Source of the DNA: Buttiauxella selenatireducens
GTDB lineage: Bacteria > Pseudomonadota > Gammaproteobacteria > Enterobacterales > Enterobacteriaceae
Length of the DNA: 64,000 nt
Assembly (NCBI RefSeq): GCF_031432975.1
Contig: NZ_CP133838.1
Coordinates: 1,674,001 to 1,738,000, forward strand
Direction: 5' to 3'
The notes under the pieces are model-generated. The model saw only the letters and a list, made by a program, of their open reading frames with translations, was not told the origin of the DNA and did no database searches. The translations under genes were made by a program, and so were the position numbers. The number at the start of each line of letters is the position of its first letter. The first letter of the stretch is position 1. Below, piece after piece: positions 1-13,971 of this stretch.

Positions 1-152
1 GTGTGTAACCAACGTGAACAGGTAAATGCTGTTCTCATAAACACACAGCCGCTTTCCCCCTGTAACTCCTGTTCCTCTGGGTTGGACATTGTGATTCTTC
101 CCGCCTGCGCCGAAAGGGGCAGCAGCACACAAAGTAGCGTTAATAGTCTCAT
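1..152 (-). CDS. Partial small exported protein, C-terminus off the left edge
   Basis: The reading frame opens with ATG at 152 on the minus strand and stays open to base 1, giving 50 codons without a stop. The first 17 residues (MRLLTLLCVLLPLSAQA) look like a classic Sec signal peptide with an AQA cleavage site, followed by a hydrophilic segment with two cysteines. A GGAGAG sequence precedes the start by about 8 bases. It lies 64 bases downstream of the recombinase gene in the same orientation, so the two may be co-transcribed. I do not recognise the family. A secreted or periplasmic protein is the only inference the visible part supports. Confidence 0.5.
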   Translation of the reverse strand, partial: MRLLTLLCVLLPLSAQAGRITMSNPEEQELQGESGCVFMRTAFTCSRWLH

Positions 153-216
153 CACTTCTACTCTCCGTTATTTCACCCGTTGTACGGTTTTACCTTTGGT
201 AAATCGCCTTGCGATG

Positions 217-771
217 TTAGATATTCAGGTCCAGATAGGTTTGATTAACTTCATCCTGGGTAATGTCCAGATACGTCATAGTAACCGCCGGACTGCTGTG
301 GTTTAGCATCTTACTGATAACCTCAATCGGTGTTCCTGTCTCCCACAATGCACGGCCCCGACATTTACGCGCCGAATGGCTGCTGATGTTCTTATCCGTT
401 ACCATTTCTCCCGCATCACTGAATGCACGGCTTGCCGCTTCTCGTGTGATCGGACGTGGCTCAAGGTTCTTAACCCTGTTGGATTTGGACTGAAACAGGA
501 ATTTATCCTCTGGGTATTCAGCACGACGACGGAGGATAATCTCCCGTGCTCGGTTGTTAATCGGGAATACTTTCGCTTTACCTGTCTTCTTTTCCTTTAT
601 GGTCACTACATTCCCAGCAACATCATCAAAGGTCAGGGCCAGCAGATCGCTAATGCGTAGAGCCATATTGAGGTTAAGCGCCCAGGCATCAGCAAACGTT
701 TCATTGCGGCGGCGTAGCACCGCCTCTATTGCGCGAGCCTCTTCCGGTGTTGGTGCATTGGTTTTAGCCAT
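217..771 (-). CDS. Small tyrosine recombinase / integrase
   Basis: A 184-residue site-specific recombinase of the tyrosine (phage integrase) family, made almost only of the catalytic domain, like FimB/FimE. The catalytic residues are visible in order: Arg39 in ALRISDLL, Lys61/Lys62 in the beta-hairpin KEKKTGKAKVFP, His132-x-x-Arg135 in HSARKCRG, His158 in LNHSS, and the nucleophile Tyr167 in TMTYLDI. There is no room for an arm-binding or SAM-like core-binding domain, so it is much shorter than usual prophage integrases (over 330 aa). A strong GGAGG lies just before the ATG. It probably integrates or excises the 1-10 kb element, but dimer resolution or DNA inversion is also possible. Confidence 0.88.
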   Translation of the reverse strand: MAKTNAPTPEEARAIEAVLRRRNETFADAWALNLNMALRISDLLALTFDDVAGNVVTIKEKKTGKAKVFPINNRAREIILRRRAEYPEDKFLFQSKSNRVKNLEPRPITREAASRAFSDAGEMVTDKNISSHSARKCRGRALWETGTPIEVISKMLNHSSPAVTMTYLDITQDEVNQTYLDLNI

Positions 772-812
772 GAGGCATACCTCCCTTTACAATCACGTTG
801 TGAGTAAATGAT

Positions 813-830
813 TGATCATAACTCGATCAT
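813..830. promoter_or_regulatory. Possible operator or recombinase site near the integrase promoter
   Basis: GATCAT occurs at 814-819 and again at 825-830, one helical turn apart, about 45 bases upstream of the recombinase start codon. The first copy is inside the palindrome ATGATTGATCAT. The spacing and position fit binding by a regulator or by the recombinase itself, but no known site was recognised. Confidence 0.25.
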
Positions 831-1834
831 TATCAAGGTGTTTTTACATCACAAAATGAATAAAGACAACCCGCCCAGTTGAAGGGAATCTACAGAGGTC
901 CTCTCTTGCGGTTGTCTGGTCGAAAAATATCCCAGTACTGTTGGTGATCTGTTAGGCATGTGATTAGCTAGCTATCTATTTTGGCAAATCTTGGTCAAAT
1001 ATCGTACAAACTCACAGTGCGACAGGTGCCACACAGGGCCACCGCCGCGCCAGGTCACCACAACAGGGTGGACCGCTTGTGTTGCATAGTTACTCGATAA
1101 TTTTGCATTATAATTCAATCTGGGATTGCATAAAACGGTGTGGGTTGGAGTGGCAAACCAAGTGAACTAAGAAAATCATTGTGTGTCAGTGTGTTACGTT
1201 ACGTTCTCTCATGTTAGGTCACAATCTATCAGAGTGTGATGTAATACTTCGCGCTATTTCTTGGCTGCTCTCCTTCCACAACAATTGGCAGGTCTAAACC
1301 ACGCTGATCTCCTCATCTTCACCACATCAGCCGCCAGTTGCTGGCGATATTCTCAGGCCTGTTTCGGCCTCCTCTCTATACCCTTTCGCCACAATGTGAA
1401 CAGCCTACCCAGAAGGGCCTCTGTGCTTTACCAGACGCACCAGACGGTGACTTCTCCCACAATACGAATAACCTGTTGAGCTTGTCTCAGGGCTTCCCAC
1501 AATGGCTTACAGAGGCCCACATTTGGCTGATTTATGATGTTTTTATGTTTTTTCAACAAAAATGAAAAATGGTTTCAGATAAAGATTGGTGCTTAGACGC
1601 AGTACCCCGCATGAGATTTCACGATGTCAGCAATGGCGCGGGTTCTCGGTGTATTCGTGGTGTACTTCCCAACATGGTGGTCGCCAGTAGATGAGCACAG
1701 CAGGCTACAGGGGACGGTCATATTCATCTAATTACTTCAAATTAAATCAATTAAATGGGTATTTATTGGCGAGTGTGCGGCGGGGCGGTTGCAGGTCGGG
1801 ATAGGGGGAATCGTTATTGACGGGGGGGTCAGAA

Positions 1835-1930
1835 GGCCATTAGTAAAGGTTCTTAACCAACCATTGGTAAAGAGTCTTAACTAGCCATTGGTTAAAGTTC
1901 TTAACTAACCATTAGTTAAAGTTCTTAACC
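1835..1930. repeat. Four tandem 24-bp iterons (putative oriV)
   Basis: Four tandem copies begin at 1835, 1859, 1883 and 1907, an exact 24-bp period. Each copy contains CCATTRGT, then an A-rich step, then TCTTAAC; the last two copies are almost identical. Tandem repeats of about two helical turns next to AT-rich DNA are the hallmark of Rep-controlled iteron origins of plasmids and some phage-plasmids. There are no unique spacers, so this is not a CRISPR array. Confidence 0.78.
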
Positions 1931-1980
1931 CTACTATATCTTTCTATATCATTACTAAATCAATACCTATATCACTTTAA
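1931..1980. promoter_or_regulatory. AT-rich segment beside the iterons, possible DNA unwinding element
   Basis: Immediately after the last iteron the DNA is about 80 percent A+T and contains CTATATC three times (1934-1940, 1944-1950, 1967-1973). In iteron origins an AT-rich repeat cluster beside the Rep sites is where strands open. I did not find a good DnaA box (TTATCCACA) close by. Confidence 0.5.
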
Positions 1981-2068
1981 AACCAGGTCAAGACCAAAGG
2001 CAAACGGCTGGGATGACTGAGAGTCATCAGTGGTGTTAGAGATTGATAACTGGAATCACTCCGTGATG

Positions 2069-2120
2069 AATGGCTCCGCCTCACAGCGTTCCACGCTGCT
2101 ATTTGTGGAATGGCTCCGCC
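2069..2120. repeat. 12-bp direct repeat AATGGCTCCGCC, 40 bp apart
   Basis: AATGGCTCCGCC occurs at 2069-2080 and 2109-2120. Nearby are palindromes such as GCGCAAGCGC and GTCGTCGATGACGAC (about 2179-2193). The function is unknown; an accessory origin site, partition site or folded transcript are possible. Confidence 0.4.
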
Positions 2121-2487
2121 AGAGAGATGCGCTCTCATTTTGTGGGAGACAAGCGCAAGCGCGGCAGTACATTGTGAAGTCGTCGATGACGACAGGAGCT
2201 ATCAACGCGACGATCCGACTGTGGGCGGCGGCGTGGCCCCTACACTCGCCCTGAATCCATTTTAACGAGCTGTGCGGCACCGTCAGGTGATTTATCTTCT
2301 AATTCATGTGTATGTGTCACTCATTGCCTTGCATTGCTCTGTGGTGCCTTACGTTTATCTTGCTGAGTCAGCGACTATTTAACCAACATGGCGTCAAACC
2401 ACTTGACGAAGGGGGAGAGAGTGTGTATATTTGCCGGATGCATGTGTTGCGTAGTTATTCTTATCATCTATTAAATAACTAAATATA

Positions 2488-2516
2488 TTGACAAAGAAAG
2501 TGATTTATTGTAAACT
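2488..2516 (+). promoter_or_regulatory. Sigma-70 promoter for the rightward gene block
   Basis: A perfect -35 box TTGACA lies at 2488-2493 and a -10-like TAAACT at 2511-2516, with a 17-bp spacer. It would start transcription about 55 bases upstream of the first rightward gene at 2579. The TTGACA match and spacing make this the clearest promoter in the element. Confidence 0.62.
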
Positions 2517-2578
2517 GGTATTCTAAATTGAGATGACTCAATGACTTAAAAAAAATCATACTGACAACAGGGGACCCT

Positions 2579-3019
2579 ATGGCAAAACCAGCCAAATTTA
2601 ATTTCGAACTTCACGATGCACAAACCATTGCCGACGCCATTTTGAACGGTGTCACATCTCTTCAAAACCTTCGCGCTTTCCGTTACCGAGTTGGTACACC
2701 AAAACAAGCCGATGCTCGATACCCAGAAACACGCGCTGCAATGCAGATAATTTCTGCTGAACGGAAGAAAACCCGTGACCGCAAAGCTTTCAAAACCATT
2801 CTAAAGCCGCTAAGTAACCAGTACGCCGCAGGATCGACACTGGTTGAGATTTTGAAACCAGTACTCGAAGGTTACCGCCAGATGTATATGGAAAAGCTAG
2901 GCCTTGCACTCACTCATGAGCAAATCATCATGTTGTTGATTGCAACTGATGGTGTGGAACAGCTTGAAAAGTATGGCTACAGCGTGATCGGTGAGTTTCC
3001 AGCAACCACAACCGCATAA
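2579..3019 (+). CDS. Unrecognised 146-aa protein, first gene of rightward block
   Basis: A 146-residue soluble, basic protein with no signal peptide or membrane segment. An AGGGG sequence sits six bases before the ATG, and a good promoter lies about 65 bases upstream. The middle (residues 35-80) is rich in Lys and Arg, which would suit DNA or RNA binding. The C-terminal part looks helical and ends in a flexible Thr/Ala tail. I do not recognise the family. As the gene nearest the iterons, a role in replication or copy control is a reasonable guess, but nothing in the sequence proves it. Confidence 0.65.
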   Translation: MAKPAKFNFELHDAQTIADAILNGVTSLQNLRAFRYRVGTPKQADARYPETRAAMQIISAERKKTRDRKAFKTILKPLSNQYAAGSTLVEILKPVLEGYRQMYMEKLGLALTHEQIIMLLIATDGVEQLEKYGYSVIGEFPATTTA

Positions 3020-3148
3020 CGTCCGACCCACGGCGACAGCCGACCCCAAGAAATACCAATTAAATAGCCGAAAATCGGCAACGCTACCCCTGATTACTCC
3101 CGTAATCCCCAGGGGCGATCCCGTATATCTTTTTGGAGGACCGATGAC

Positions 3149-3340
3149 ATGAATATTAAGTTCCAGGATCACGTTTTTCAGGCGTTACTTGCTGAAGCCA
3201 ACCGCCAAAACAAACCGATGGCGAGGCTGTGCCACGAAATATTGGCTACTGCCGCAAGCATTTTCGACAACGCACCAACCATACCCAACGAGGGGACAAA
3301 CCAGAATGGAGATACTAATGATCGAGACGGTAGAAACTAA
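3149..3340 (+). CDS. Small 63-aa protein of unknown function
   Basis: A 63-residue ORF with a very strong ribosome binding site (TGGAGG, eight bases before the ATG). The first 40 residues, with KFQDHVFQALLAEANRQNKPMARLCHEIL, resemble the helical half of small ribbon-helix-helix or Arc-type proteins. The tail is rich in Asn, Asp and Gly. Its end overlaps the start of the next gene (3318) in another frame, which suggests translational coupling. A small DNA-binding control protein is an inference only. Confidence 0.6.
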   Translation: MNIKFQDHVFQALLAEANRQNKPMARLCHEILATAASIFDNAPTIPNEGTNQNGDTNDRDGRN

Positions 3341-4313
3341 TAAATCAGACGACCAAGACGGCACTTTTGATCGCAACTACACCGAAGTTAAGCGAATTAC
3401 CACCCTAACCTCTAAGAATGGAATAGATAAGGTGGGCAACGGTAAAGATTCAATGCTCGTACCTGTACCTGATGGAACCAAAGTACCCTTTACTGGAAAC
3501 ATGAAAATCGTCTACGCCTATCTATTCACTTTCCAGGATAACGAGAAACGCCACAATTATCCGGCACCGATCCACCCAAACATGGAAATGATCGCATGGG
3601 AGAATGGCATCACTAAACCTACGGCGCAAAAAGCCGTGGATGCTTTAATGTTAGCGGGTGTGCTGATAAAAGATCAGATTCAGGTTGGCAACGGGTTTAA
3701 GTCCAATAATTACGTCGTGTTAAAACCATCAAAAGTGGTCGAGATGGGAATTATTCCGACACATCCGAGCGAAGCAAAAAGCAAGAACCAAAAGCAGCAG
3801 CCCGAGGAAAACAACAATGGCAAATCCAAAGAACCAAACCACGCCGACGATGTGGTGCCTTCCACGGCAGATACTGGAGAATCAGAATTTGTTCAACAGC
3901 TTGCTAGTGATCGGTTCGATGATGTTTCCCCTGATGATGAGGTAAGCGAGGAAGAAGATCCGGTTTTCCCAGTGCCAAAGGCAGAACCAGAACAAAGCCC
4001 AGCCGTTCAAACTGAACCAGAACGCGCAGACTTTATTAATTTAGAATATTGGTTCCATGGTGGTGAAGAAGACCGCGAGGAATACGGGAGACAGTGGGGA
4101 AAAACTAAACCAGGTGAGATAACCGACTTGATCCATAGCCACTACCGCGCCGCGCAGAAAGATAAAGAGAAAAACCGAGGTTTTAAATCTGCCGCCAATG
4201 ATGAGCAGCCTGGTGCTGATGTCCGGTATAGACAGCAACAGGAACAGAACCTAGCAGCTAGTCGGCCTGCAAATGGATTTTCCATGCAAGATCTGAACCA
4301 AATCCCTTATTAA
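3318..4313 (+). CDS. Winged-helix replication-initiator-like protein
   Basis: A 331-residue protein if started at the ATG at 3318, which has GGAG six bases upstream; an ATG at 3306 is an alternative. Residues about 55-130 form a helix-turn-helix/winged-helix module (NMEMIAWENGITKPTAQKAV, then a hydrophobic helix and a wing) of the type seen in plasmid and phage replication initiators and DnaD/HTH_36-like proteins. The second half is low-complexity, very acidic and Gln/Pro/Glu-rich (about residues 145-245), then a basic Gln-rich tail. It is the best candidate for the Rep protein that binds the iterons at 1835. A transcription regulator is the alternative. Confidence 0.65.
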   Translation: MIETVETNKSDDQDGTFDRNYTEVKRITTLTSKNGIDKVGNGKDSMLVPVPDGTKVPFTGNMKIVYAYLFTFQDNEKRHNYPAPIHPNMEMIAWENGITKPTAQKAVDALMLAGVLIKDQIQVGNGFKSNNYVVLKPSKVVEMGIIPTHPSEAKSKNQKQQPEENNNGKSKEPNHADDVVPSTADTGESEFVQQLASDRFDDVSPDDEVSEEEDPVFPVPKAEPEQSPAVQTEPERADFINLEYWFHGGEEDREEYGRQWGKTKPGEITDLIHSHYRAAQKDKEKNRGFKSAANDEQPGADVRYRQQQEQNLAASRPANGFSMQDLNQIPY

Positions 4314-4329
4314 CGTAATGTGAGGTGCA

Positions 4330-4797
4330 ATGAATGATGACCGCAACAGCGTAAACGCTGAACAATCCAACAAATGGCAGACTACCCGCCTGAAGTACCG
4401 CAAGTACGATGAAGCCCTAATAAAGAAAGCCAAAACCATGCTTGTGTATGGTGTTTCACCTGGCAAGGTAGCACTACTCTGTCGGCTTGATCCTGCATAT
4501 GTCGACCAGCTTTTTTTAACGTGGAACCCCACGTTTCGCAGAATTTGCAAACCGAATCAATTTACTACCCAGCGTATGGCAAAACAGCTATTCAGTGATG
4601 GTGCCAATCTTGAAAGCATCTGCAAGTTATTAGACATCCCAATTTTCACCCTGAGTGAATATCTAATCACAGCAGGCGTTTCCAGAGTCGATGTGATGGC
4701 CCGAATGCCTGAACCAACTCATAAATTAGCAGTTGAATATCGAAAGACTATCGCCAGAAAACAACGGGCGAAACACAAAGCTTTTTCCCTGCACTAA
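4330..4797 (+). CDS. 155-aa protein with two similar HTH-like units
   Basis: A basic 155-residue protein with GAGG before its ATG, 16 bases after the previous gene. Two stretches look like copies of one another: KAKTMLVYGVSPGKVALLCR (about residues 34-53) and MAKQLFSDGANLESICKLLD (about 83-102). Each has Ala-Lys, a Gly turn, a hydrophobic helix and Leu-Asp, consistent with a tandem helix-turn-helix. The closing segment is rich in Arg and Lys. This pattern resembles FlhC-like or phage activator proteins only in a general way; no family was recognised. It may regulate the structural genes downstream. Confidence 0.62.
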   Translation: MNDDRNSVNAEQSNKWQTTRLKYRKYDEALIKKAKTMLVYGVSPGKVALLCRLDPAYVDQLFLTWNPTFRRICKPNQFTTQRMAKQLFSDGANLESICKLLDIPIFTLSEYLITAGVSRVDVMARMPEPTHKLAVEYRKTIARKQRAKHKAFSLH

Positions 4798-4804
4798 ATT
4801 CCGC

Positions 4805-4993
4805 ATGAATTTACTTGAATACCTAGCGCTGATCCCTTTATCAGTGGCGATAACTCATTGCCTGCTGTCTGGGATCGGTCTGTTTTACAGATACCTAAAG
4901 GAATATCACATTGAAAAAATTAGAAGAAGTAAGAGCCGAGCTACTCAAGGCAATGACCACAGCGAACGCAGAAGACGAGCGGGAAGACCTTAG
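4805..4993 (+). CDS. Small single-pass membrane protein
   Basis: A 62-residue ORF starting at ATG 4805. Residues about 7-29 (LALIPLSVAITHCLLSGIGL and on) form one hydrophobic transmembrane segment; the rest is strongly basic (RRSKSRATQ..., SERRRRAGRP), so the C-terminus should stay in the cytoplasm. There is no clear ribosome binding site, but the start is only eight bases after the previous stop, so coupling is possible. It overlaps the next gene by 83 bases. A holin-like or anchoring role cannot be told from sequence. The ORF could be spurious. Confidence 0.42.
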   Translation: MNLLEYLALIPLSVAITHCLLSGIGLFYRYLKEYHIEKIRRSKSRATQGNDHSERRRRAGRP

Positions 4994-5243
4994 CAAAAGT
5001 GCGGATCAGGCCCTGGCTGATGCAATTCAAGGTTATCTCAGCGTAAGCAACGAACCAGCAACGCCAAAGGTGGGGAAAACCATTAAAGAGAAGGGGATTG
5101 CCCTCTGTCACAGCGTTCAGGGATATAGCGCTAACCTACGCCCTGTCAGTCTGATGATGAAAAGCAAGCTCGAAGACTTGACCACTGAACAGCTTGAGGC
5201 CCTGAAACGCCTTGGCTACGCCATTAACCAGGTGGCTGAATGA
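4911..5243 (+). CDS. 110-aa acidic helical protein preceding the tape measure gene
   Basis: Begins with a TTG codon at 4911 preceded by AAAGGA at the right spacing. The product has 110 residues, is highly charged and mainly helical, with an acidic N-terminal half and a C-terminal helix ending LEALKRLGYAINQVAE. Its stop codon overlaps the ATG of the tape measure gene (ATGA at 5240), so the two are translationally coupled. In tailed phages the genes just before the tape measure encode tail assembly chaperones. Position suggests such a role, but sequence similarity was not recognised. Confidence 0.62.
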   Translation: MKKLEEVRAELLKAMTTANAEDEREDLSKSADQALADAIQGYLSVSNEPATPKVGKTIKEKGIALCHSVQGYSANLRPVSLMMKSKLEDLTTEQLEALKRLGYAINQVAE

Positions 5244-7345
5244 GTACATCGAACAAGATAGTAACCAGTACCGTCAACGAAATTTCCTTCTCTGTCAACC
5301 AGACAAGTTACGGGCAAGCGCTAAAGAAAATAAAGAGCATTGGCAAAGCTTGGGACAATGTCGGCAAAAGCTACGAACGCAGCGCAGAGAGATTCAAATC
5401 TCACCCAGTCTTTGGCGGCAACGGTGGGAGTTCACCAAACAAACCCTCTAAACCCAACAGCACAAAGCCACAGCGTGAGGCCCTCCGCCGTCAACGTGAA
5501 CAGCTTCAACTAGAGAAAAAACTCAACACCATTAAGGCCCGTGGCATTCGGTTTAGCACTGCAACCAACAGCTACAACCTAACAGCACCACAACGCGCCC
5601 AAGCGATTCAGGATTTTAGCCAGCTAACGAAACAATTCCACAATGGCTCGTTGGCCCTTGGAGTGTATAACGCCCGTGTAGCCCAATTGCAGCAGCGCCT
5701 ACGCCAGCAGGGTGGGTTAGTCAAAAAGCCGGTGACTGTTCCGGTGAAGGCCAGGATAACCAAGCTCGATACATCACTCCTTGATCAGGCTGGTCCGGCT
5801 ATCGCGATTGGTGCCACCATCGGTATTGGTGCAACCATTATGCGCACTGGTCAGGATATGGATTCGGTTATATCGGGTTTAACGGCTGTAACTGGTTCAT
5901 CCGAAACCGCTGCAAAAGAGTTTGAATATCTTCGTGGCGAGGCCAATCGCCTTGGATTGGATTTGGTTAAGACATCTCAGGAGTACATGAAATTTAGTGC
6001 TGCCACTAAAAGCAGCATGACTGAGGCCCAGACTAAAAGTATTTTTGCTGGGTTATCTGAATATTCTACGGTTTTAGGGTTGTCTGCTGAGAAAAGTAGT
6101 TTAGCTCTCAATGCTTTAACGCAAATGTCGAGTAAGTCAGTTGTCAGTATGGAAGAACTGCGTCAACAGTTTGGGGATCAGATTCCTGGTGCGTTGGCAA
6201 TTTTCACCAAGGCTTACAACAAGGTTAACAAGACAGCCTTGTCCGAGGGCGAGTTTGCTAAATTGGTAGGTGATGGCAAAGTATTAGCCAAAAATGTTTT
6301 ACCTGCCGTTGGTGACGAATTAAAAGCTCTGGCCCGTAACGGTGGTGCTTTAAATAAAGCTGTGAATAGCAACCGCGCTGCTTTTCAACGTCTACAAACC
6401 TCAATGCAACTTTCTCAGAAAAACCTCTTTGATGCGGGTTTCGGTAAGAGTCTAACTGATGCCTTTAACGGCGTAACTGACGCTATCAACAGCAACCAAA
6501 GTGCATTCTCATCATTGGGCGAGGTTTCTGGCAAAGTCATCGACGGGTTTATGGCGGTGGCTGGCGGGGTGTATAACGCCTTCATCGATATTGACGGCAT
6601 AATTAAAACCTACCTCCCCAGCATCTCGAAATCATTTGAAGGATTAGGAAATACAGCAGCTTACGCTACAGGCATTGCTTTGTTTACAGGCAGTCTGTGG
6701 AAGCTGGGCGGGGCGCTGAAGTACATCGTGGGCTTCCTCAACCCGTTGCGTGGAGTTGTTGGCACACTCCAGACCCTTGGCGGTCTTGGTGGAATAACAA
6801 CTCCAGGGACAGACAACAACGGCAATCAAGGCGCAGATAAAGGAAAACCAGGCCGCAAGCCAACGAAAGCGGGTAGGGGTGGCTTCTCAATCGGACTGCC
6901 AGCAGTTATTGCGGGTGTTTCCCTGTGGAACCAGGTTGACGAAGTTCAGGCCGACCCTCAAGCATTCCTGAAAAATGTACAGAAAAACAACAACAGGCCG
7001 ACGATGTGGACTGATATTAAAGAGTTCTTTGCAACCCATTCACTGGGATTAACTAACTCATTCGTTGGGATGAACACACTACCAGGCTTACCAGGAATGC
7101 AACCAGCCGTTGCAGGGCAATCTGGTATGACTTATCAGCCAATGGCACAGCTACCAGGGATTGATAACCTTGCTACAAGCTTGGGTCTCGATAAGCCGCT
7201 AGAGGTGGCAGGTAAGGCTGATTTGCAGGTCAATAACGAAATCAAGTTAACGTTTGATGACTCCAGGTTCAGCGATGCCATACGTGCAGTAGTTCAGGAG
7301 CAAAACATATACAACATGAATATGTTGCTAGGCACACAGGAGTAA
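5240..7345 (+). CDS. Orphan phage tail tape measure protein
   Basis: A 701-residue protein with the standard tape-measure layout. Residues about 1-175 are charged and Gln/Arg-rich coiled-coil-like. A Gly/Ala/Ile-rich hydrophobic stretch follows (about 182-200). The conserved tape_meas N-terminal domain follows, with MDSVISGLTAVTGSSETAAKE, a Leu-Gly-Leu-Asp helix, and SSKSVVSMEELRQQFGDQIPGA at about 300-325. Further hydrophobic stretches lie at 445-510, then a Gly/Pro/Asn-rich linker and a short C-terminal domain. Such proteins set tail length and help deliver DNA. No tube, sheath, baseplate or fibre gene is visible here, which is highly unusual. At about 0.15 nm per residue it would specify a tail of roughly 100 nm. 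Confidence 0.88.
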   Translation: MSTSNKIVTSTVNEISFSVNQTSYGQALKKIKSIGKAWDNVGKSYERSAERFKSHPVFGGNGGSSPNKPSKPNSTKPQREALRRQREQLQLEKKLNTIKARGIRFSTATNSYNLTAPQRAQAIQDFSQLTKQFHNGSLALGVYNARVAQLQQRLRQQGGLVKKPVTVPVKARITKLDTSLLDQAGPAIAIGATIGIGATIMRTGQDMDSVISGLTAVTGSSETAAKEFEYLRGEANRLGLDLVKTSQEYMKFSAATKSSMTEAQTKSIFAGLSEYSTVLGLSAEKSSLALNALTQMSSKSVVSMEELRQQFGDQIPGALAIFTKAYNKVNKTALSEGEFAKLVGDGKVLAKNVLPAVGDELKALARNGGALNKAVNSNRAAFQRLQTSMQLSQKNLFDAGFGKSLTDAFNGVTDAINSNQSAFSSLGEVSGKVIDGFMAVAGGVYNAFIDIDGIIKTYLPSISKSFEGLGNTAAYATGIALFTGSLWKLGGALKYIVGFLNPLRGVVGTLQTLGGLGGITTPGTDNNGNQGADKGKPGRKPTKAGRGGFSIGLPAVIAGVSLWNQVDEVQADPQAFLKNVQKNNNRPTMWTDIKEFFATHSLGLTNSFVGMNTLPGLPGMQPAVAGQSGMTYQPMAQLPGIDNLATSLGLDKPLEVAGKADLQVNNEIKLTFDDSRFSDAIRAVVQEQNIYNMNMLLGTQE

Positions 7346-7614
7346 ACCTCCACTAAATGGCCTCAATGATGAGGCTCGTGAAATTTTCAGCCTGAAAAAC
7401 GCCAACCCTCTGAATAGTCGTGAAAAATCACATTATATTGATTGCATAAGATATAGTAACATGATAAAATAATAACTATGGTGATAATTGTAGTTTGTAA
7501 TGCGTACTACTGCCGTTATTACCCTGACAACTCCTAACGAATACAAAGCGGCCTACGCCTTTAGGCCCTTTTCTCATGTGTTTAGACCGCTCCTAAGATT
7601 TACCTCTCAAGGCG

Positions 7615-7720
7615 GGAAGGCTCTCAGCCAGCCGCTGAACATATGATAAAAGAAAAGTTTCGCTGACCCTTGGATTAGCGGATTTGCCGAAGCCCTTTCA
7701 TCCTCGGAAGGCTGTCAGCC
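7615..7720. repeat. 15-bp direct repeat, 91 bp apart, each able to fold
   Basis: GGAAGGCTCTCAGCC lies at 7615-7629 and GGAAGGCTGTCAGCC at 7706-7720. One base differs and both contain GGCT...AGCC, which can pair. Paired repeats in gene-free DNA suggest a bound protein or RNA structure. Confidence 0.5.
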
Positions 7721-7886
7721 GGACACTAACGGCATCAGGTGTTCAGCGTTTGAGGCTCCTTACCTCTTGGATGGCGTTGAGCACCTACCCATTCTCTCCG
7801 GTTGCAGGGCAATGAACTAAAAGTTCACCCGTGAACGGGCCTAATCTCTCCATCAGAAAACGTTAACTCTCATGAGTTCTCCTACC

Positions 7887-7916
7887 CCAGGCGGGATCTC
7901 CCGTCTTGGTTTTTTT
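7887..7916 (+). terminator. Rho-independent terminator
   Basis: A stem CCAGGCGGGA paired with TCCCGTCTTGG (one G-U pair and one bulged T) is followed directly by seven T residues. It is one of the strongest terminator signals in the window. It lies upstream of the capsid genes rather than after a gene. Confidence 0.72.
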
Positions 7917-7936
7917 CTGTATGGATACCAAACAAG

Positions 7937-7962
7937 AAGGCCATCGAATGATGGCCTTTTTT
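7937..7962 (+). terminator. Second, tandem rho-independent terminator
   Basis: AAGGCCATC pairs perfectly with GATGGCCTT around a four-base loop, followed by a run of T. It is 20 bases after the previous terminator and about 93 bases before the decoration gene. It would block readthrough into the capsid genes unless a promoter lies between or antitermination occurs. Confidence 0.72.
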
Positions 7963-8055
7963 GTACCAAAACGGCTTGGTCGTGAAATATGCCAGCCGAT
8001 CAAAACAACTGCCGCCAACTGGCAGAACATGACTACTGATTGGAGAAACAAAACT

Positions 8056-8397
8056 ATGAAAATGGGAACAACTCAACGTTCTTACAATTCGGTGATCGCG
8101 TATGCCGCAGATCCGAATTTTGACAGAAAGTCGCTCACTGTCGATCTGGCTGTCGATGTGCAACCAGGTAGCTGCATTACAAGTGCTGGGGCTGCTTACG
8201 TATCCGGAGCTGACTGTCTGTTAGTGCTGAGTCATCACAATGCAGGGGCAGATGCTCACATCATCGTTGCAGACCGTGGCGTTTATATCAAACAGGACAC
8301 CATCATTGCTGTTATGGGCGCGACGGCTGGCCCGTTAGCTGTTGCAGCCTTGACCGCTTCAGGCGATATCCGCACCACCACACCAGACGCAGAATAA
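8056..8397 (+). CDS. Lambda gpD-like head decoration protein
   Basis: A 113-residue protein from ATG 8056, chosen because GGAG precedes it and longer frames run back through a terminator. It is Ala/Gly/Val-rich and predicted all-beta, with the pattern of lambda gpD-type capsid-stabilising proteins: a disordered N-terminus, then VDVQPGSCITSAGAAYVSGAD, a short DRGVYIKQDTI strand, and an Ala-rich end. It lies directly before an E-like capsid gene, the same order as lambda D-E, with 15 bases between. Size, composition and position support the call more than any single motif. Confidence 0.66.
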   Translation: MKMGTTQRSYNSVIAYAADPNFDRKSLTVDLAVDVQPGSCITSAGAAYVSGADCLLVLSHHNAGADAHIIVADRGVYIKQDTIIAVMGATAGPLAVAALTASGDIRTTTPDAE

Positions 8398-8412
8398 TAA
8401 GGAGAAGACAAC

Positions 8413-9444
8413 ATGGGACTATCAACCAATTTCAGCTTTGCTGACTACACCAACACCTTTGTAAATTTGCCAGCACAAAACACGTTGCTGACCACACTTA
8501 ATGTTTTCAGTGATCGACAGACTTCAGCAAGTCCGAAGGTGAGCCTCGACGTGATTGATGAAATTGCTCAAAAAGTAGCTAGCTCAGTTAATCGCTATTC
8601 ATCTGACTGGTCCAGTACAGTGAAGAGTAGCGCCTCTAATCACCTTATTGAGGCCCCTCTTTATGCATTCCAGGATCGGATTACAGCAGCCGATATCCAA
8701 CCATACCGCAAACCAGGTAGTGACTTGCAAGCAACCATCATGGACGCTGTAACCTCTTCGGCTCTCGCTATGCATGATAAGTACATGCGCACAAAAGAAA
8801 AAATGTTCGCAGATGCACTTTTCCGTAATACCGTTGATGCACCATACACCCAGCAGCCGCTCATTTCATGGGAGGATGAGTTCGGATACCAACAAGCGAC
8901 CGGAACGATCAAAACCAACGTTGCTTCAGGTGACCCGCTACGCAGTCTGGATGACGCTGTGACGGCTGCTAAAGTGCGAATGGGTGGCCTGGCTGGTCAT
9001 CTGGATGGCTTTATCCTCCTTGCGGGTAGCAATGTCTACAAGGGGGTAAAATATCACCCAGATATTCGGCAGAACGTCCAGATGGGGCTGTTAGATCGTG
9101 ACGTGCTGTTTAACAAGGAAATCCTCCCGGCATTTTCAACATTCTTGATCGACAATGTTCGAATTATTGAAGTGACAGATCCGCTTTACGGTGTAGGTCC
9201 AGACGATTCATACCTGGTCCCACGTTTCAGTAAACCGCTGTCGTCTAACATTGCTCTACCTTTCGGATATGTAGCAACGGCAACAAGCCGCGATCTAGAA
9301 CTGGCATTTGCTGAACCGGTAGATTTTAGGATCTGGTCTCTTCAGGACAGATTTAAGAATGTGGAAATCTTCGCGGAAAGCTCAATCTTACCAGTGGTGT
9401 ACCGTCCTGATATGGTCACGCTGTTGACGAATGACCCAGCGTAA
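8413..9444 (+). CDS. Lambda gpE-like major capsid protein
   Basis: A 343-residue protein, close to lambda gpE (341 aa), preceded by a strong AAGGAGA. The layout fits the phage major capsid E family. Residues 1-60 carry a segment like the family N-arm (LPAQNTLLTTLNVFSDR... VSLDVID). A loop around residues 78-100 (EAPLYAFQDRITAADIQPYR) follows, then a long helix with MRTKEKMFADALF. A central beta region is next, and the C-terminal strand pattern includes DPLYGVGPDDSYLVP. It would form the icosahedral head with the gpD-like partner. No portal, protease, scaffold or terminase gene is present in the window, so assembly must depend on a helper phage or on genes outside it. Confidence 0.72.
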   Translation: MGLSTNFSFADYTNTFVNLPAQNTLLTTLNVFSDRQTSASPKVSLDVIDEIAQKVASSVNRYSSDWSSTVKSSASNHLIEAPLYAFQDRITAADIQPYRKPGSDLQATIMDAVTSSALAMHDKYMRTKEKMFADALFRNTVDAPYTQQPLISWEDEFGYQQATGTIKTNVASGDPLRSLDDAVTAAKVRMGGLAGHLDGFILLAGSNVYKGVKYHPDIRQNVQMGLLDRDVLFNKEILPAFSTFLIDNVRIIEVTDPLYGVGPDDSYLVPRFSKPLSSNIALPFGYVATATSRDLELAFAEPVDFRIWSLQDRFKNVEIFAESSILPVVYRPDMVTLLTNDPA

Positions 9445-9581
9445 GCAGTTGAGTTAACGGTTTTGGGGGCGACTTGTCCCCCACCGTGAAGAACGGCCCA
9501 TAACATCGCTGTTGGCGATTTGGCTATAGCCAAACCTGCACGGCAGGTGATGGAGGGCGAGGCAAAGGAAAGGAGATATAG
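9445..9581 (+). promoter_or_regulatory. Hairpin-rich leader after the capsid gene
   Basis: GGGGG at 9465-9469 can pair with CCCCC at 9478-9482. A perfect 16-bp palindrome TTTGGCTATAGCCAAA lies at 9519-9534, and CCTGCACGGCAGG follows. The palindrome could be an operator for the 72-aa protein encoded next, or these elements could fold in the transcript. Confidence 0.4.
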
Positions 9582-9800
9582 ATGTGTAAAATAGTGATCA
9601 CGGGTTTTGCTAACATGCCCTTACTCAGCATGATAGCTGATGGCAGCTTGAAAAGTGACAGTATCCTTAACGTGTCGGCATTAGCTCGTTATTGTGGCGT
9701 GGCAAGGGCGACATTTATCAGCCGCTGTGAACGATACGGCCTTGAGTCCACCATCAAGCATTTTCTCAACGAGAAGCGCCGCAAACAATGCAATACATAA
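9582..9800 (+). CDS. Small HTH-like protein
   Basis: A 72-residue basic protein with a very strong ribosome binding site (AAAGGAGATATAG before the ATG). Residues about 30-60 (ILNVSALARYCGVARATFIS and on) fit a helix-turn-helix: Ala-Leu-Ala-Arg-Tyr-Cys-Gly-Val-Ala-Arg-Ala-Thr. The tail is Lys/Arg-rich. A small DNA-binding regulator is likely. It closes the rightward block and is followed at once by a terminator. Confidence 0.6.
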   Translation: MCKIVITGFANMPLLSMIADGSLKSDSILNVSALARYCGVARATFISRCERYGLESTIKHFLNEKRRKQCNT

Positions 9801-9825
9801 AGCCAGGTGAAAGCCTGGCTTTTTT
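9800..9825 (+). terminator. Rho-independent terminator after the 72-aa gene
   Basis: AAGCCAGG and CCTGGCTT form an 8-bp stem with a six-base loop, followed by T residues. It separates the rightward genes from the convergent leftward gene at 9837. Confidence 0.8.
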
Positions 9826-9836
9826 GTGCCTGTAAT

Positions 9837-10085
9837 TTATAACATACTGACTTGGAGCCCTGCTGCTTTCAGACGTTCAGTTAGGTTTCTCATCTTGCTA
9901 AACTCAGAACCAAAACTTGACGCAATACCCAATCCCTCACAAAACTCTTTGGCGGTAACGTTTTTAAGATCGTCGGCATACTTGATCATTTGCAGGTGTA
10001 ATTCTGCTGTGTAACGGTTGCGGGGGGCATCTCGCAAGGCGAGGTTAATACGTTCATAAATCTTTGCTTCTGTTGCAGTAGCCAT
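9837..10085 (-). CDS. 82-aa putative repressor-like protein
   Basis: A leftward gene encoding 82 residues, preceded by a strong GAGGAGG. Residues about 38-75 (LKNVTAKEFCEGLGIASSFG then SEFSKMRNLTERLKAAGL) look like a helix-turn-helix with a following recognition helix. Size, orientation opposite to the structural genes, and the paired AT-rich repeats right upstream fit an autoregulated repressor. The exact family was not recognised. Confidence 0.58.
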   Translation of the reverse strand: MATATEAKIYERINLALRDAPRNRYTAELHLQMIKYADDLKNVTAKEFCEGLGIASSFGSEFSKMRNLTERLKAAGLQVSML

Positions 10086-10101
10086 TGGTTTACCTCCTCT
10101 A

Positions 10102-10136
10102 TATAAATTATATAAAAAATATAAATTATATAATTT
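10102..10136. promoter_or_regulatory. Paired 14-bp AT-rich operator-like repeats
   Basis: TATAAATTATATAA occurs exactly at 10102-10115 and 10120-10133. The second copy overlaps a perfect palindrome AAATTATATAATTT (10123-10136). The pair sits 17-51 bases upstream of the 82-aa regulator start, overlapping where its promoter should be. This suits autoregulation. Confidence 0.5.
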
Positions 10137-10146
10137 AGAAAATCAA

Positions 10147-10497
10147 GGTGCTTGTACAAATGAACTTTTGGCCTTTTGTTTTCTGGAGGACATACGTGCT
10201 CAACATACCCTGATAGCTCTTTCAATCCCGCTCTCTTGCTGTACGTCCTGAAACTTCCAATCTCTTGGCACTTGCTCTACAAGCACCACGATTCTGTTCT
10301 ACCGCAAGAACAACCTCAAATACTGATGCTGGGGAAAGCCTGTTTTTTGTGTATGTCGTTATTATTGGGCCACTGCTTGGGCCGCGATGCGGAGCACATG
10401 TCGTTTTTGAGGGGGTTGTGTCTTTGGCTTCCCGCTGGCATTATCCTGATTAGGGATTAACGGGACGTTAATCGCAAGTAGTTGATTTTGATTTTAA
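10147..10497. other. About 350 bp without a gene at the right end of the element
   Basis: No supported coding sequence. An inverted repeat GGTGCTTGTA (10147-10156) and TACAAGCACC (10278-10287) brackets about 120 bp. The junction between mobile DNA and the thiM leader must lie between about 10140 and 10497. No direct repeat marking an att site could be paired with the left side. Confidence 0.4.
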
Positions 10498-10498
10498 A

Positions 10499-10577
10499 TG
10501 ACTCGGGGTGCCCTTCTTTGTGAAGGCTGAGAAATACCCGTACCACCTGATCTGGATAATGCCAGCGTAGGGAAGTC
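10499..10577 (+). ncRNA. TPP riboswitch (thi box) of thiMD
   Basis: The conserved thiamine pyrophosphate aptamer is plain: CTCGGGGTGCCCTTC at its start, the GCTGAGA core followed by AATACCCGT, then the second sensor helix with ACCTGATCTGGATAATGCCAG and the closing CGTAGGGAAG. It agrees almost base for base with the E. coli thiM leader. Bound TPP lowers thiM translation. Confidence 0.96.
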
Positions 10578-10582
10578 AGATG

Positions 10583-10617
10583 CCTGTCCGGCATCCCTTC
10601 TTCGCGCCGGACAGGAG
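10583..10617 (+). promoter_or_regulatory. Riboswitch expression platform hiding the thiM ribosome binding site
   Basis: CCTGTCCGGC (10583-10592) can pair fully with GCCGGACAGG (10606-10615), covering the start of the AGGAG sequence at 10613-10617. This 10-bp stem is the expected OFF structure that blocks thiM translation when TPP is bound. Confidence 0.72.
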
Positions 10618-10624
10618 CTTTATG

Positions 10625-11413
10625 ATGCAACCTGACCTGCTACCCGGCCATATCGCCGCGTCGATTTTACTGCAACTTCGCACAACTTCCCCTCTTGTTC
10701 ACTGCATGACTAACGATGTGGTGCAGAGTTTTACGGCTAATGTTTTGCTTGCCATCGGTGCCGCTCCGGCCATGGTGATTGAAGCGCAAGAAGCCGCTCA
10801 ATTTAGCCCTGTTGCCCATGCGCTGCTGATCAATATTGGCACTCTGACCGCTGAACGTCGTCACGCCATGCTTGCAGCCATTCATGCGGCAAATGAATCT
10901 TCCACACCCTGGGTGCTTGATCCGGTTGCCGTTGGCGGCCTGGCGTTTCGCACGCAGTTCGCCCATGAGGTGCTCGCTCTAAAGCCGGCCGTTATTCGCG
11001 GGAATGCGTCGGAAATCCTGGCGCTGGCGAGTGGTCATTCCGGTGGGCGCGGCGTGGATAGCATCGACGATGCACTTTCTGCCCTTCCCGCTGCACAGGC
11101 TCTGGCACAACGGGTAGGGACGATTGTTGTGGTAACCGGTGAGCGAGACTACATCACAGACGGTGAAAATAGCTGGAGTGTTGCGGGTGGAGGCGTTTTG
11201 ATGACGCGTGTGGTCGGCACCGGTTGTGCGTTATCTGCTGTGGTGGCCGCTTGTTGTTCATTGCCTGGCTCGAAGCTTGATAACGTCGCAGCCGCCTGCC
11301 AGTTTATGAAGATTGCGGGTCAACAGGCCATTTCAGAGAGCCGTGGCCCAGGCAGCTTTATTCCTGCCTTTCTCGACGCGCTTTACGGGCTTCATGTGGA
11401 GGCTCTGGCATGA
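10625..11413 (+). CDS. thiM: Hydroxyethylthiazole kinase
   Basis: ThiM phosphorylates 4-methyl-5-hydroxyethylthiazole with ATP to salvage the thiazole half of thiamine in the cytoplasm. From ATG 10625 the product has 262 residues, the same as E. coli ThiM, and aligns from the first residues; ATG 10622 is equally possible. Family signatures are [12 protein letters not shown] near residue 22, WVLDPVAVG, the RGNASEI substrate loop, and the [12 protein letters not shown] nucleotide and active-site loop near residue 197. It ends in an ATGA overlap with thiD, forming an operon under the TPP riboswitch. Confidence 0.97.
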
Positions 11414-12219
11414 AAGGATTAAAACGAATCAATGCGCTGACTATTGCCGGAACCGATCCAAGCGGTGGTGCGGGCATTCAGGCCGACCTGAAAACTTTCT
11501 CGGCGTTGGGCGCGTATGGCACCAGTGTGGTTACCGCGCTCGTGGCGCAGAATACGCGTGGGGTGCAGTCGGTCTATCGCATTGAGCCCGCGTTTGTTGC
11601 CGCCCAACTGGATTCAGTGTTGAGTGACGTGCGCATCGATACCATAAAAATCGGCATGTTAGCTGAAACCGATATTGTTGAAGCGGTGGCGGAGCGGCTG
11701 GCGTTTTACCACGCGCAAAATGTGGTGCTCGACACGGTGATGCTGGCGAAAAGCGGCGATCCCTTGCTTGCACCTTCGGCGGTTGACAGCTTACGTCGCA
11801 GGCTTCTACCGCAAGTGGCATTGATAACGCCGAACCTGCCGGAAGCCGCAGCACTGCTGGATACACCCCATGCACGCAATGAGCGGGAAATGAAACAGCA
11901 GGGTGACGCTTTGTTAGGGTTGGGCTGCCAGGCCGTGCTGATGAAAGGCGGTCATCTTGATGATGCTGAAAGCCCGGATTGGTTATTTACCCGTGACGGC
12001 GCGCAGCGCTTTACCGCACCGCGTGTGCAAACCCGTCATACTCACGGAACAGGCTGCACATTATCTGCGGCACTTGCCGCACTTTATCCACGCTATAACA
12101 ACTGGCCGCAAACCATCGATGCGGCGAAAAAATGGTTATCCCAGGCGTTAGAACAGGCGGATTCACTGGAGGTCGGAGGCGGAATTGGGCCTGTACATCA
12201 CTTTCATGAATGGTGGTAA
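11410..12219 (+). CDS. thiD: Hydroxymethylpyrimidine / phosphomethylpyrimidine kinase
   Basis: ThiD makes HMP-P and then HMP-PP, the pyrimidine precursor that is joined with thiazole phosphate to form thiamine phosphate. The 269-residue product shows the ribokinase-like fold signatures: [20 protein letters not shown] near the N-terminus, the central [22 protein letters not shown], and the C-terminal [15 protein letters not shown] anion hole with catalytic Cys. It is three residues longer at the N-terminus than the E. coli protein. The start overlaps the thiM stop, so translation is coupled. Confidence 0.97.
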
Positions 12220-12270
12220 TCCGGTATATACTTGGGCTCTTTCTCTTCATCTTCCGGATACTTGCGCGAC

Positions 12271-13017
12271 ATGGAACAGGTTCACACTCAGCTTATTGAA
12301 CAGCTTATCCAGCGGTTCTCGCAGGCCGATAACACGCCGTTGTATTTGAAATTCGCCGAAACGGTGAAGGCGGCTGTGCGCAGCGGTATTTTGCCGCAGG
12401 GCAATATTCTGCCGGGTGAGCGCGATCTCAGCCAGTTGACCGGTGTTTCGCGCATCACGGTGCGCAAAGCGATGCAGACGCTGGAAGATGATGGGGTAGT
12501 AACACGTTCGAGAGGTTACGGTACGCAAATTAACACCACTTTTGAGTATTCGCTCAAAGAGGCGCGTGGATTTTCTCAACAGGTGGTTTTGCGCGGTAAA
12601 AAACCGAACACACTGTGGGTCAATAAACGGGTGGTGAAATGCTCGCCGGAGGTTGCCGAACAACTGGATGTGGCGGCGGACAGCGACGTGTTCTTACTCA
12701 AACGCATTCGTTACGTTGATGAAGATGCGGTATCAGTCGAGGAATCGTACGTACCTGCGCAATTGATTGCAGATGCCGATGATATCGGCGTCTCGTTGTA
12801 TGACTATTTCCGCAGCCAGAATATTATTCCGCAGCGCACCCGCAGTCGTGTGAGTGCCAGAATGCCGGACAGCGAATTCCAGTCGCACATCAAACTGGAA
12901 ACACCTGTGCCGGTTCTGGTGATCAAACAAGTCGCCTTTGATCCCCAAAACCGGCCTATCGAATACAGCATCAGCTACTGCCGCAGCGATTTATACGTTT
13001 TCGTCTGCGAGGAGTAG
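12271..13017 (+). CDS. yegW: GntR/HutC-family transcription regulator YegW
   Basis: A 248-residue regulator, the same length as E. coli YegW and very similar through its whole length. Residues about 20-90 form the GntR winged helix (ILPGERDLSQLTGVSRITVR is the recognition region). Residues about 100-245 form a UTRA effector domain, closing with the family ending SYCRSDLYVFVCEE. The start at 12271 matches the family; an in-frame extension to 12232 has no support. It probably senses a metabolite of the yegTUV genes. Its 3' end overlaps the convergent yegV by 27 bp. Confidence 0.93.
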   Translation: MEQVHTQLIEQLIQRFSQADNTPLYLKFAETVKAAVRSGILPQGNILPGERDLSQLTGVSRITVRKAMQTLEDDGVVTRSRGYGTQINTTFEYSLKEARGFSQQVVLRGKKPNTLWVNKRVVKCSPEVAEQLDVAADSDVFLLKRIRYVDEDAVSVEESYVPAQLIADADDIGVSLYDYFRSQNIIPQRTRSRVSARMPDSEFQSHIKLETPVPVLVIKQVAFDPQNRPIEYSISYCRSDLYVFVCEE

Positions 13018-13971
13018 CGCTTCATTGAGTTGTTCAAGGTGCGGCGCGCAGTCGCCGCCACGATGACTGACCACGTAAGACGCGACCGCATTACCCAGAC
13101 TTACCGCATCTGCCAGACTCCACCCCGCGGCAAGACCTGCCAGGGTGCCGCCCGCATGACTATCACCCGCGCCGATGGTATCGACGACAACTGCCGGGAA
13201 CGGGGCCACGTGCCCAATTGCCGTATGTGAGCCGTACCACGCGCCTTGTGTATCGAGCCGCACAATGAGTGGCGCATCATAACGTTCAAGCCAGGCGCGG
13301 CAAATGCCTTCAATGTCGTCGCCAGCCACCTTCAATCCTTCGGCGGCAATGGCGGCTTCCTGGCGATTAAGCGAGACGATCGGTTTACAGGCCATAATCC
13401 GCGCCAGCAGAGCGGCTGGAATATCGGCAATGCGTGGCCCGAAGTCGATAAATGCGGTGACCGCATCAAGCGATTCAAGCCAGTTCACCAATAAGTCTGC
13501 GCACGGGCCAGCCAGTTGATACCCCGAAAGCGAAAGCAGAGTGCCTGGTGCGAGCTGAAGTTTATCCAGCCATTGCTGATTCCACTGATGCTCAACGCCA
13601 CGAAATGACATAAACGTTCGTTCGCCGTCTGGCTCAACCAGCGCCAGACACCAACCGTTATCGCCGCAGCTCGTGTGGATTTCGCTCTCGATGCCTTGTT
13701 TATCAAGGCTTGTACGAATGATATCCGCCCAGGTTCCCTGGCCAATCGGCAGCGCATTTTTCGAGGCGACACCCAGACGTGAAAGTGTCAGCGCGATATT
13801 CAACGCGCAGCCACCGATATTCACGCTTTGCTGTTGCAGTTCGATATCGCACCCGCGCCACGGCAGGGAATAAGCGTCGGCGATAACATCAATCACCGCC
13901 GAGCCCAGCACGCATACCGGGCGCTGCGCCACCAATGTTGGCAAGCGAGAATGTAATTCACTGGCTGTCAT
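12991..13971 (-). CDS. yegV: PfkB-family sugar/nucleoside kinase YegV
   Basis: A 326-residue ribokinase/PfkB-family kinase. Visible signatures are NIGGCALNIALTLSRLG (family signature 1, about residue 51), GDNGWCLALVEPDGERTFMSF, and the catalytic DTIGAGDSHAGG (about residue 272) holding the anion hole and general-base Asp. The substrate is unproven; the neighbouring ADP-ribosyl hydrolase-like yegU and nucleoside transporter yegT point to ribose or nucleoside use. ATG 13971 was chosen by comparison with the E. coli start. It overlaps the end of yegU by 14 bases, typical of an operon. Confidence 0.93.
   Translation of the reverse strand: MTASELHSRLPTLVAQRPVCVLGSAVIDVIADAYSLPWRGCDIELQQQSVNIGGCALNIALTLSRLGVASKNALPIGQGTWADIIRTSLDKQGIESEIHTSCGDNGWCLALVEPDGERTFMSFRGVEHQWNQQWLDKLQLAPGTLLSLSGYQLAGPCADLLVNWLESLDAVTAFIDFGPRIADIPAALLARIMACKPIVSLNRQEAAIAAEGLKVAGDDIEGICRAWLERYDAPLIVRLDTQGAWYGSHTAIGHVAPFPAVVVDTIGAGDSHAGGTLAGLAAGWSLADAVSLGNAVASYVVSHRGGDCAPHLEQLNEALLLADENV

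Follow-up and report, generated by a model that had tools for sequence, protein, structure and literature searches.

P4-like satellites are about 11–12 kb long, and P4 itself has its own primase-helicase and reshapes the P2 capsid by means of Sid. Capsid-forming phage-inducible chromosomal islands (cf-PICIs) carry portal, protease and terminase genes. Satellites with their own capsid and satellites with their own tape measure protein (TMP) are both already known. The phage-inducible chromosomal island-like element (PLE) of Vibrio is a satellite of the virulent myophage ICP1 (PMC12987554; PMC10945586). In the first of these (PMC12987554, Nature 2026) it is described as encoding its own TMP and giving rise to chimeric tails, the PLE11 TMP being 95 aa shorter and the tails ∼10 nm shorter, and, according to the legend of Extended Data Fig. 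10, PLE-like elements and some cf-PICIs also have putative tmp genes. The locus compared with these systems here lies in a window of 64,000 nucleotides from Buttiauxella selenatireducens (contig NZ_CP133838.1, positions 1,674,001–1,738,000), the whole stretch of DNA that was analysed, and is part of an integrated element of 13,389 bp.

Judged from its genes, this element is, with a probability of about 0.78, a phage satellite that has its own head kit and TMP and would draw the remainder of its virion from a Vequintavirinae-like helper. Pfam, PHROG and repeat analyses place a tyrosine recombinase, iterons, a winged-helix Rep candidate, a TMP and a capsid protein in one block, as the earlier note made from the bare sequence had proposed, and integration and replication genes stand beside an incomplete virion set, the combination by which a satellite is recognized. 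On this reading it belongs to a new family of satellites, in which tasks are shared between satellite and helper in an unusual way. The literature that could be searched contains no report of an element with its own capsid and TMP in the absence of portal and terminase, or of a satellite using this helper group.

Vequintavirinae are virulent myophages of 135–150 kb and common coliphages; to our knowledge, no satellite has been reported for them. Profiles of the element's proteins match the capsid (E-value 1e-19 to 7e-24), scaffold and TMP of the Vequintavirinae phages MaxTheCat, phiTE and ChuuTotoro and the decoration proteins of two of the three (E 4e-5), and profiles from plasmid forms of the family also match the phage tube initiator and neck. 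In the reverse direction, a search with 24 MaxTheCat structural proteins against 17 elements found matches to the scaffold (7), capsid (15), TMP (13), neck (4) and tube initiator (4) and nothing else; neither these profile searches nor the reverse search of the 17 elements produced a terminase, portal, protease, sheath, tube or hub. The structural genes thus resemble, and by sequence similarity point to, one phage group. What they share with the Vequintavirinae head and tail modules is a homologous scaffold segment, decoration protein, capsid and TMP and, in the plasmid cousins, neck and tube initiator, whereas the scaffold-like protein and TMP of the element are shorter and the other virion genes were not found.

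The scaffold-like protein provides a close link. Residues ∼53–102, in its C-terminal half, correspond to the N-terminal part of the head scaffold of Vequintavirinae (E 2.7e-11 for the profile against that of MaxTheCat); the full protein has 110 aa versus 325–371 aa in the phages. This segment is found in 320 phage records, chiefly Vequintavirinae by size and name, with identity of up to 73% and an exact 23-nt DNA match, and 23 aa of this motif also occur in the scaffold of ICP1. A homologue of the 110-aa protein has been named by NCBI after gene 211 of phage phiTE, which directly precedes the decoration and capsid genes, the place of the annotated head scaffold in MaxTheCat. The TMP (701 aa versus 778–811 aa in Vequintavirinae, and 77 aa shorter than that of MaxTheCat) matches 1,367 phage records, with the best coverage in phages of 145–150 kb. 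The tube initiator of the plasmid forms is ∼50% identical over 205 aa to that of Escherichia coli rV5-like phages. The earlier note had likened two adjacent genes to the lambda D–E pair; the capsid half of this holds (Phage_cap_E), whereas the decoration partner is a weaker match made by profile only (PHROG E 0.075 and 0.024; no match in a single-sequence search from the phage side). An alternative start of the decoration gene at 7906 is less likely than the ATG at 8056.

Scans of ten window proteins against PHROGs, Pfam and NCBIfam, in which the batch scans covered the best 25 of 28 Pfam and the best 25 of 45 PHROG families, contained no terminase, portal or protease family, bearing out the earlier note on this point, and the element does not hold the complete Vequintavirinae prophage set of terminase, portal, sheath, tube and baseplate. 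Among known systems the chimeric tails of PLE are the nearest precedent; PLE, like the present element, has its own TMP, shorter than that of its helper. However, in PLE the ICP1 coat protein is reshaped by TcaP, whereas the present element itself encodes a capsid protein, a decoration protein and a scaffold-like protein; the hosts also differ, and PLE was compared by description only. Like a cf-PICI, the element is integrated and has its own capsid gene, and it would take its tails from a helper, but a terminase, portal and protease of its own were found neither among the ten window proteins nor, as MaxTheCat versions, in the 17 elements. P4 is similarly a small integrated enterobacterial satellite of a myophage; the present element differs in having its own capsid, and no Sid, Psu or P4 alpha primase-helicase was detected among the ten window proteins (Pfam, PHROGs). 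The differences from cf-PICIs and P4 that the earlier note had stated therefore hold for the features that were testable.

The extent of 1–10140 given in the earlier note requires correction. The element is framed by a 74-bp repeat, with attL and attR identical at 73 of 74 positions and the element length measured as repeat-to-repeat spacing; on the same chromosome it begins 2,892 bp to the left of the window, and it ends with the repeat copy at 10497–10570. Extension to the left, which the note had called for, reached the attachment repeat with a 451-aa integrase beside it, followed by a DUF4145 gene whose product matches PD-T7-4, a defence family (E 1.6e-98), and a gene for a 139-aa protein; past the repeat, chromosomal genes resume. 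Terminase, portal and tail genes, which in this position would have marked the end of an ordinary prophage, were not encountered there. The thiamine pyrophosphate (TPP) riboswitch that carries the repeat is present in one copy in 10 of 12 genomes of the genus (the window's own being counted among the 12) and in two copies in the window's genome. A further genome of this species (L060, G403:C1:866000-882000) has two riboswitch repeats on either side of an unrelated 11.6-kb insert; the large open reading frames (ORFs) of this insert measure 697, 1302 and 485 aa, and it may be a defence island that uses this site. No second copy of the capsid or TMP is present in the host genome, so that, judged by these two genes, it harbours no cognate helper prophage.

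Relatives were gathered by three capsid searches and one larger one. Loci with the cassette from fam0 to fam7 are termed type A (21 loci); the remnants L026 and L027, the fragment L007 and the nonsatellite L060 were left out before counting, and L074 and L033 were dropped from type A. By profile, the fam0, fam2, scaffold-like, decoration-like, capsid and fam7 genes occur in all 21 type-A loci and Rep in 20; the profiles were built from 6–11 type-A loci per family, so that founders match by construction and eight later loci are independent. The search for conserved synteny proposed in the earlier note shows the order fam0, Rep, fam2, scaffold-like, decoration, capsid to be kept in 20 of the 21, which rejects a chance assembly, and the block is thus not the lone scrambled remnant that the note had named as the contrary outcome. 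The capsid gene is under purifying selection, with a median ratio of nonsynonymous to synonymous substitution (dN/dS, from pairs with dS < 2) of 0.064 (15 usable of 78 pairs); values for fam0, TMP and fam2 are 0.22–0.26 (TMP median 0.226, 23 of 45 pairs) and that for the decoration-like gene is 0.37. A degraded prophage that has lost its packaging and tail genes would account for the absent genes and the odd order, and true remnants do exist (L026 and L027 with IS1, L074 broken); however, the preserved order, the low capsid dN/dS, the intact att repeats and the lack of any relative with a terminase or portal among the retrieved loci make this explanation very improbable. L026 and L027 themselves are IS1-disrupted, carry a baseplate-like gene and an integrase, and are related to the plasmid type.

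Type-A elements are inserted at the TPP riboswitch in at least eight loci (L034 weakly) and elsewhere at tRNA-Thr, tRNA-Gly and other sites. The capsid genes of L002 (E. coli) and L031 (E. asburiae) differ by a dS of 0.30, far below the 1.54–1.73 of thiD between these species, which indicates that the element moves across genera. The 21 integrated elements with a clear repeat have a mean length of 13,393 bp (SD 547, range 11,918–14,174), and type-A elements with a TMP average 13,604 bp (n = 12) versus 13,177 bp (n = 6) without it, although the TMP gene accounts for 2.1 kb; this near-constant length fits a capacity limit. The flanking repeats were sought at 11–16 kb and later at 6–25 kb, with the best spacing unchanged in 20 of 21 (the exception, L034, being a run of N); a clear repeat is lacking in 11 of 32 loci, and most locus stretches are 18 kb, which bounds the element size that is visible.

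A second lineage consists of nine circular E. coli plasmid records of 13,238–13,697 bp per unit, one of them being a tandem trimer of 39,610 bp (L020). The plasmid forms carry tail-tube initiator and neck protein genes in addition. L018, L019, L020, L042 and L043, filed as non-mobilizable or plain plasmids, carry capsid, TMP, tube initiator and neck, and from these genes they look like episomal satellites. A third lineage is integrated in Klebsiella and other genera, with a ∼600-aa TMP 3′ of the capsid in L021, L039, L041 and L069. At least 80% of the L002 cassette is present in 22 of 5,426 E. coli genomes, that of L003 in three and a plasmid-form match in seven, whereas the window's own element at 80% is in none of the 5,426. 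Capsid-positive genomes number five of 394 for the order and 25 of 392 sampled species genomes for the window's family, two of the latter being 64-aa fragments.

Several observations weigh against the satellite reading or its choice of helper. The capsid is only ∼23% identical to those of known phages, with four matches among 50,697 phage records; its separation from all of them is old, and the actual helper may therefore be a relative that has not been sampled. Scans of virus contigs gave two capsid relatives; with the plasmid capsid and with the TMP of the window they gave nothing. The scaffold-like protein matches that of MaxTheCat directly in only 10 of the 21 type-A loci. Five loci (L009, L023, L025, L011 and L006) have a second allele of it (type II), differing in the C-terminal half, and that of L023, the one searched, is unmatched in the phage collection; this allele may point to another helper group. 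The decoration proteins of the plasmid forms are unmatched to phage ones. The TMP is full length in 13 of the 21 type-A loci, a 65-aa fragment in one and absent from seven, and is therefore dispensable for the family. dN/dS is higher in the scaffold-like (0.61) and Rep (0.63) genes, and fold searches with fam0 and fam2 did not find a candidate packaging recognition protein. In the type-A locus L036r, three baseplate-like ORFs lie 1.6–3.9 kb into the stretch and at least 9 kb to the left of fam0; in this IMG/VR contig (L036, 55.6 kb), where the element edge was not found, they probably belong to a neighbouring prophage.

Two further explanations draw on these points. The element could be a satellite whose helper belongs to a group other than Vequintavirinae, the shared genes being an old capture, as the low capsid identity, the scatter of TMP matches over so many records and the unmatched type-II protein would allow; the scaffold segment, with its exact 23-nt match, and the tube initiator of the plasmid forms are much more similar to the phage versions than would be expected after an old capture, and this explanation is rather unlikely. 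The plasmid-form capsid has 47 matches among the same 50,697 records, including Vequintavirinae and Vibrio phages of 130–150 kb. In L064 (reverse strand, 10126–12009) two opposite-strand genes, an HTH/ImmA-like pair (helix-turn-helix; the ImmA likeness is read from the beginning of the ORF), stand where the TMP gene would be, which suggests that this place is an exchangeable cargo slot. Such a pair, the absence of the TMP from one third of type-A loci and the defence genes among the cargo would also suit a defence island assembled from acquired virion genes, in which capsid, scaffold-like protein and TMP act as dominant-negative assembly poisons and the element is never packaged. Yet integrase, att repeats, iterons, Rep and near-constant length are all kept, the element moves between genera, and its autonomous plasmid cousins have an even larger structural set; interference and packaging are moreover not mutually exclusive. 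A defence island is consequently a distinctly unlikely account, and the interpretation as a helper-dependent satellite is retained.

The interval between the TMP and decoration genes of type-A loci (516–774 bp) has no conserved gene. In the window, 7442–7965 forms a conserved candidate non-coding RNA with a covarying H-type pseudoknot and promoter-like and terminator-like ends, for which no Rfam family was found. The pseudoknot comprises three stem-1 and six stem-2 pair types, with both strands of both stems varying; its descriptor was drawn up on the very sequences that were afterwards used in the shuffle test. Whole-locus scans found it once in L005 and once in L002, and it was absent from five plasmid records, ten third-lineage or unassigned loci and five phage stretches. 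In a shuffle control of the window, terminator-like signals numbered 7 versus 0.7 and promoter-like signals 1 versus 1.1, that one not being the conserved promoter; the fold of the 116-nt leader alone is unremarkable (z −1.5). The pseudoknot RNA may gate the capsid genes, or it may act in trans. In PMC12987554, the SviR RNA of PLE is said to target helper morphogenesis messages, a parallel to the pseudoknot RNA and not evidence for it.

The 184-aa recombinase is the second of the element, besides the 451-aa integrase, and is adjoined by fam11 in other elements too. The gene-free stretch after it holds the iterons, a probable replication origin, and comparable arrays with 23-bp spacing occur in L024 and plasmid L018. 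The Rep-like protein, whose relatives carry the name DUF6945, matches PHROG replication initiation families (best E 2.8e-5) and Pfam HTH_36 only at E 0.28. The Rep translation used in the comparisons started two codons inside its likely start, and M was set as the first residue of all translations. Structure models of fam0 and fam2 (pLDDT 77 and 75) gave no confident fold match.

Table 1. Positions in the window of the element's genes, RNA signals and right attachment site (aa, amino acids).
Feature	Position	Strand	Evidence or distribution
Small exported-protein-like ORF, start only (cut by window edge)	3..155	-	family fam11
Minimal tyrosine recombinase, 184 aa	217..771	-	Pfam Phage_integrase E 4.7e-20; PHROG integrase E 1.5e-37
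Iteron array	1836..1929	.	∼22-bp units at 24-bp spacing, overlapping 46-nt copies
fam0, core protein, 146 aa, predicted all-helical	2579..3019	+	in 21/21 type-A loci
Small protein, 63 aa	3149..3340	+	in 19/21 type-A loci; a ribbon-helix-helix label is a guess
Rep-like protein, N-terminal winged helix	3318..4313	+	in 20/21 type-A loci; start codon inferred
fam2, helical HTH-like protein, 155 aa	4330..4797	+	in 21/21 type-A loci
Scaffold-like protein, 110 aa	4911..5243	+	PHROG 2970 E 1.6e-17
Tail tape measure protein (TMP), 701 aa	5240..7345	+	PHROG tape measure E 7e-86; Pfam TMP_3 E 1e-22
Promoter-like TTG-N-TAAAAT ahead of RNA	7442..7470	+	pattern in 20/21 type-A intergenic regions, without shuffle control
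H-type pseudoknot	7713..7733	+	20/21 regions versus shuffled mean 0.5, maximum 3/21
Two terminator-like hairpins with T-runs, candidate RNA end	7886..7965	+	terminator-like hairpins in 20/21 regions, without shuffle control
Decoration-like protein, 113 aa	8056..8397	+	PHROG head decoration E 0.024
Major capsid protein, 343 aa	8413..9444	+	Phage_cap_E E 3e-14
fam7, core protein, 72 aa	9582..9800	+	in 21/21 type-A loci
Protein, 82 aa	9837..10085	-	phrog_30666 (PHROG of unknown function) E 1.1e-37
attR, right 74-bp repeat copy	10497..10570	+	within thiM TPP riboswitch 10494-10590

In the proposed mechanism, the element would stay integrated until the cell is infected by a virulent phage resembling the Vequintavirinae, whereupon it would be excised and replicate from the iterons. 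Its capsid, decoration and short scaffold-like proteins would build a head fitted to ∼13.4 kb, the common scaffold segment drawing in a helper component such as the portal or protease, and the helper terminase would package the element DNA. The helper sheath, tube, baseplate and fibres would then assemble on the shorter TMP of the element, giving a slightly shorter chimeric tail; if the PLE11 rule (95 aa for ∼10 nm) holds for 77 aa, the tail would be expected to be ∼8–12 nm shorter. PD-T7-4 and other cargo could meanwhile shield the host population. The fullest form of this model, put forward tentatively and at somewhat less than even odds, is a satellite that replaces the head-size and tail-length determinants of a virulent phage of 135–150 kb (capsid, decoration, a mini-scaffold bearing a docking peptide copied from the helper, and its own TMP, with tube initiator and neck in the plasmid forms) and runs on the portal, motor and tail of the helper, with the pseudoknot RNA, under a promoter and terminator of its own, gating the capsid genes or silencing helper morphogenesis messages as SviR does.

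These results support the earlier note in essence: a mobile element that would rework the head and tail of a helper is upheld, with neither of the contrary outcomes it had named being observed, and we infer that the mechanism is helper-dependent. What the present analysis adds is the likely group of helpers, the scaffold-like protein, the true ends of the element and its relatives among plasmids. The putative helper and host are tractable laboratory systems (BASEL collection phages and E. coli K-12), and the scaffold segment gives a testable idea of how a foreign procapsid recruits helper parts. If the satellite reading is true, TMP swapping, described for PLE in 2026, has a wider origin or distribution, and it is possible for a satellite to bring the genes for its head and yet have neither portal nor terminase.

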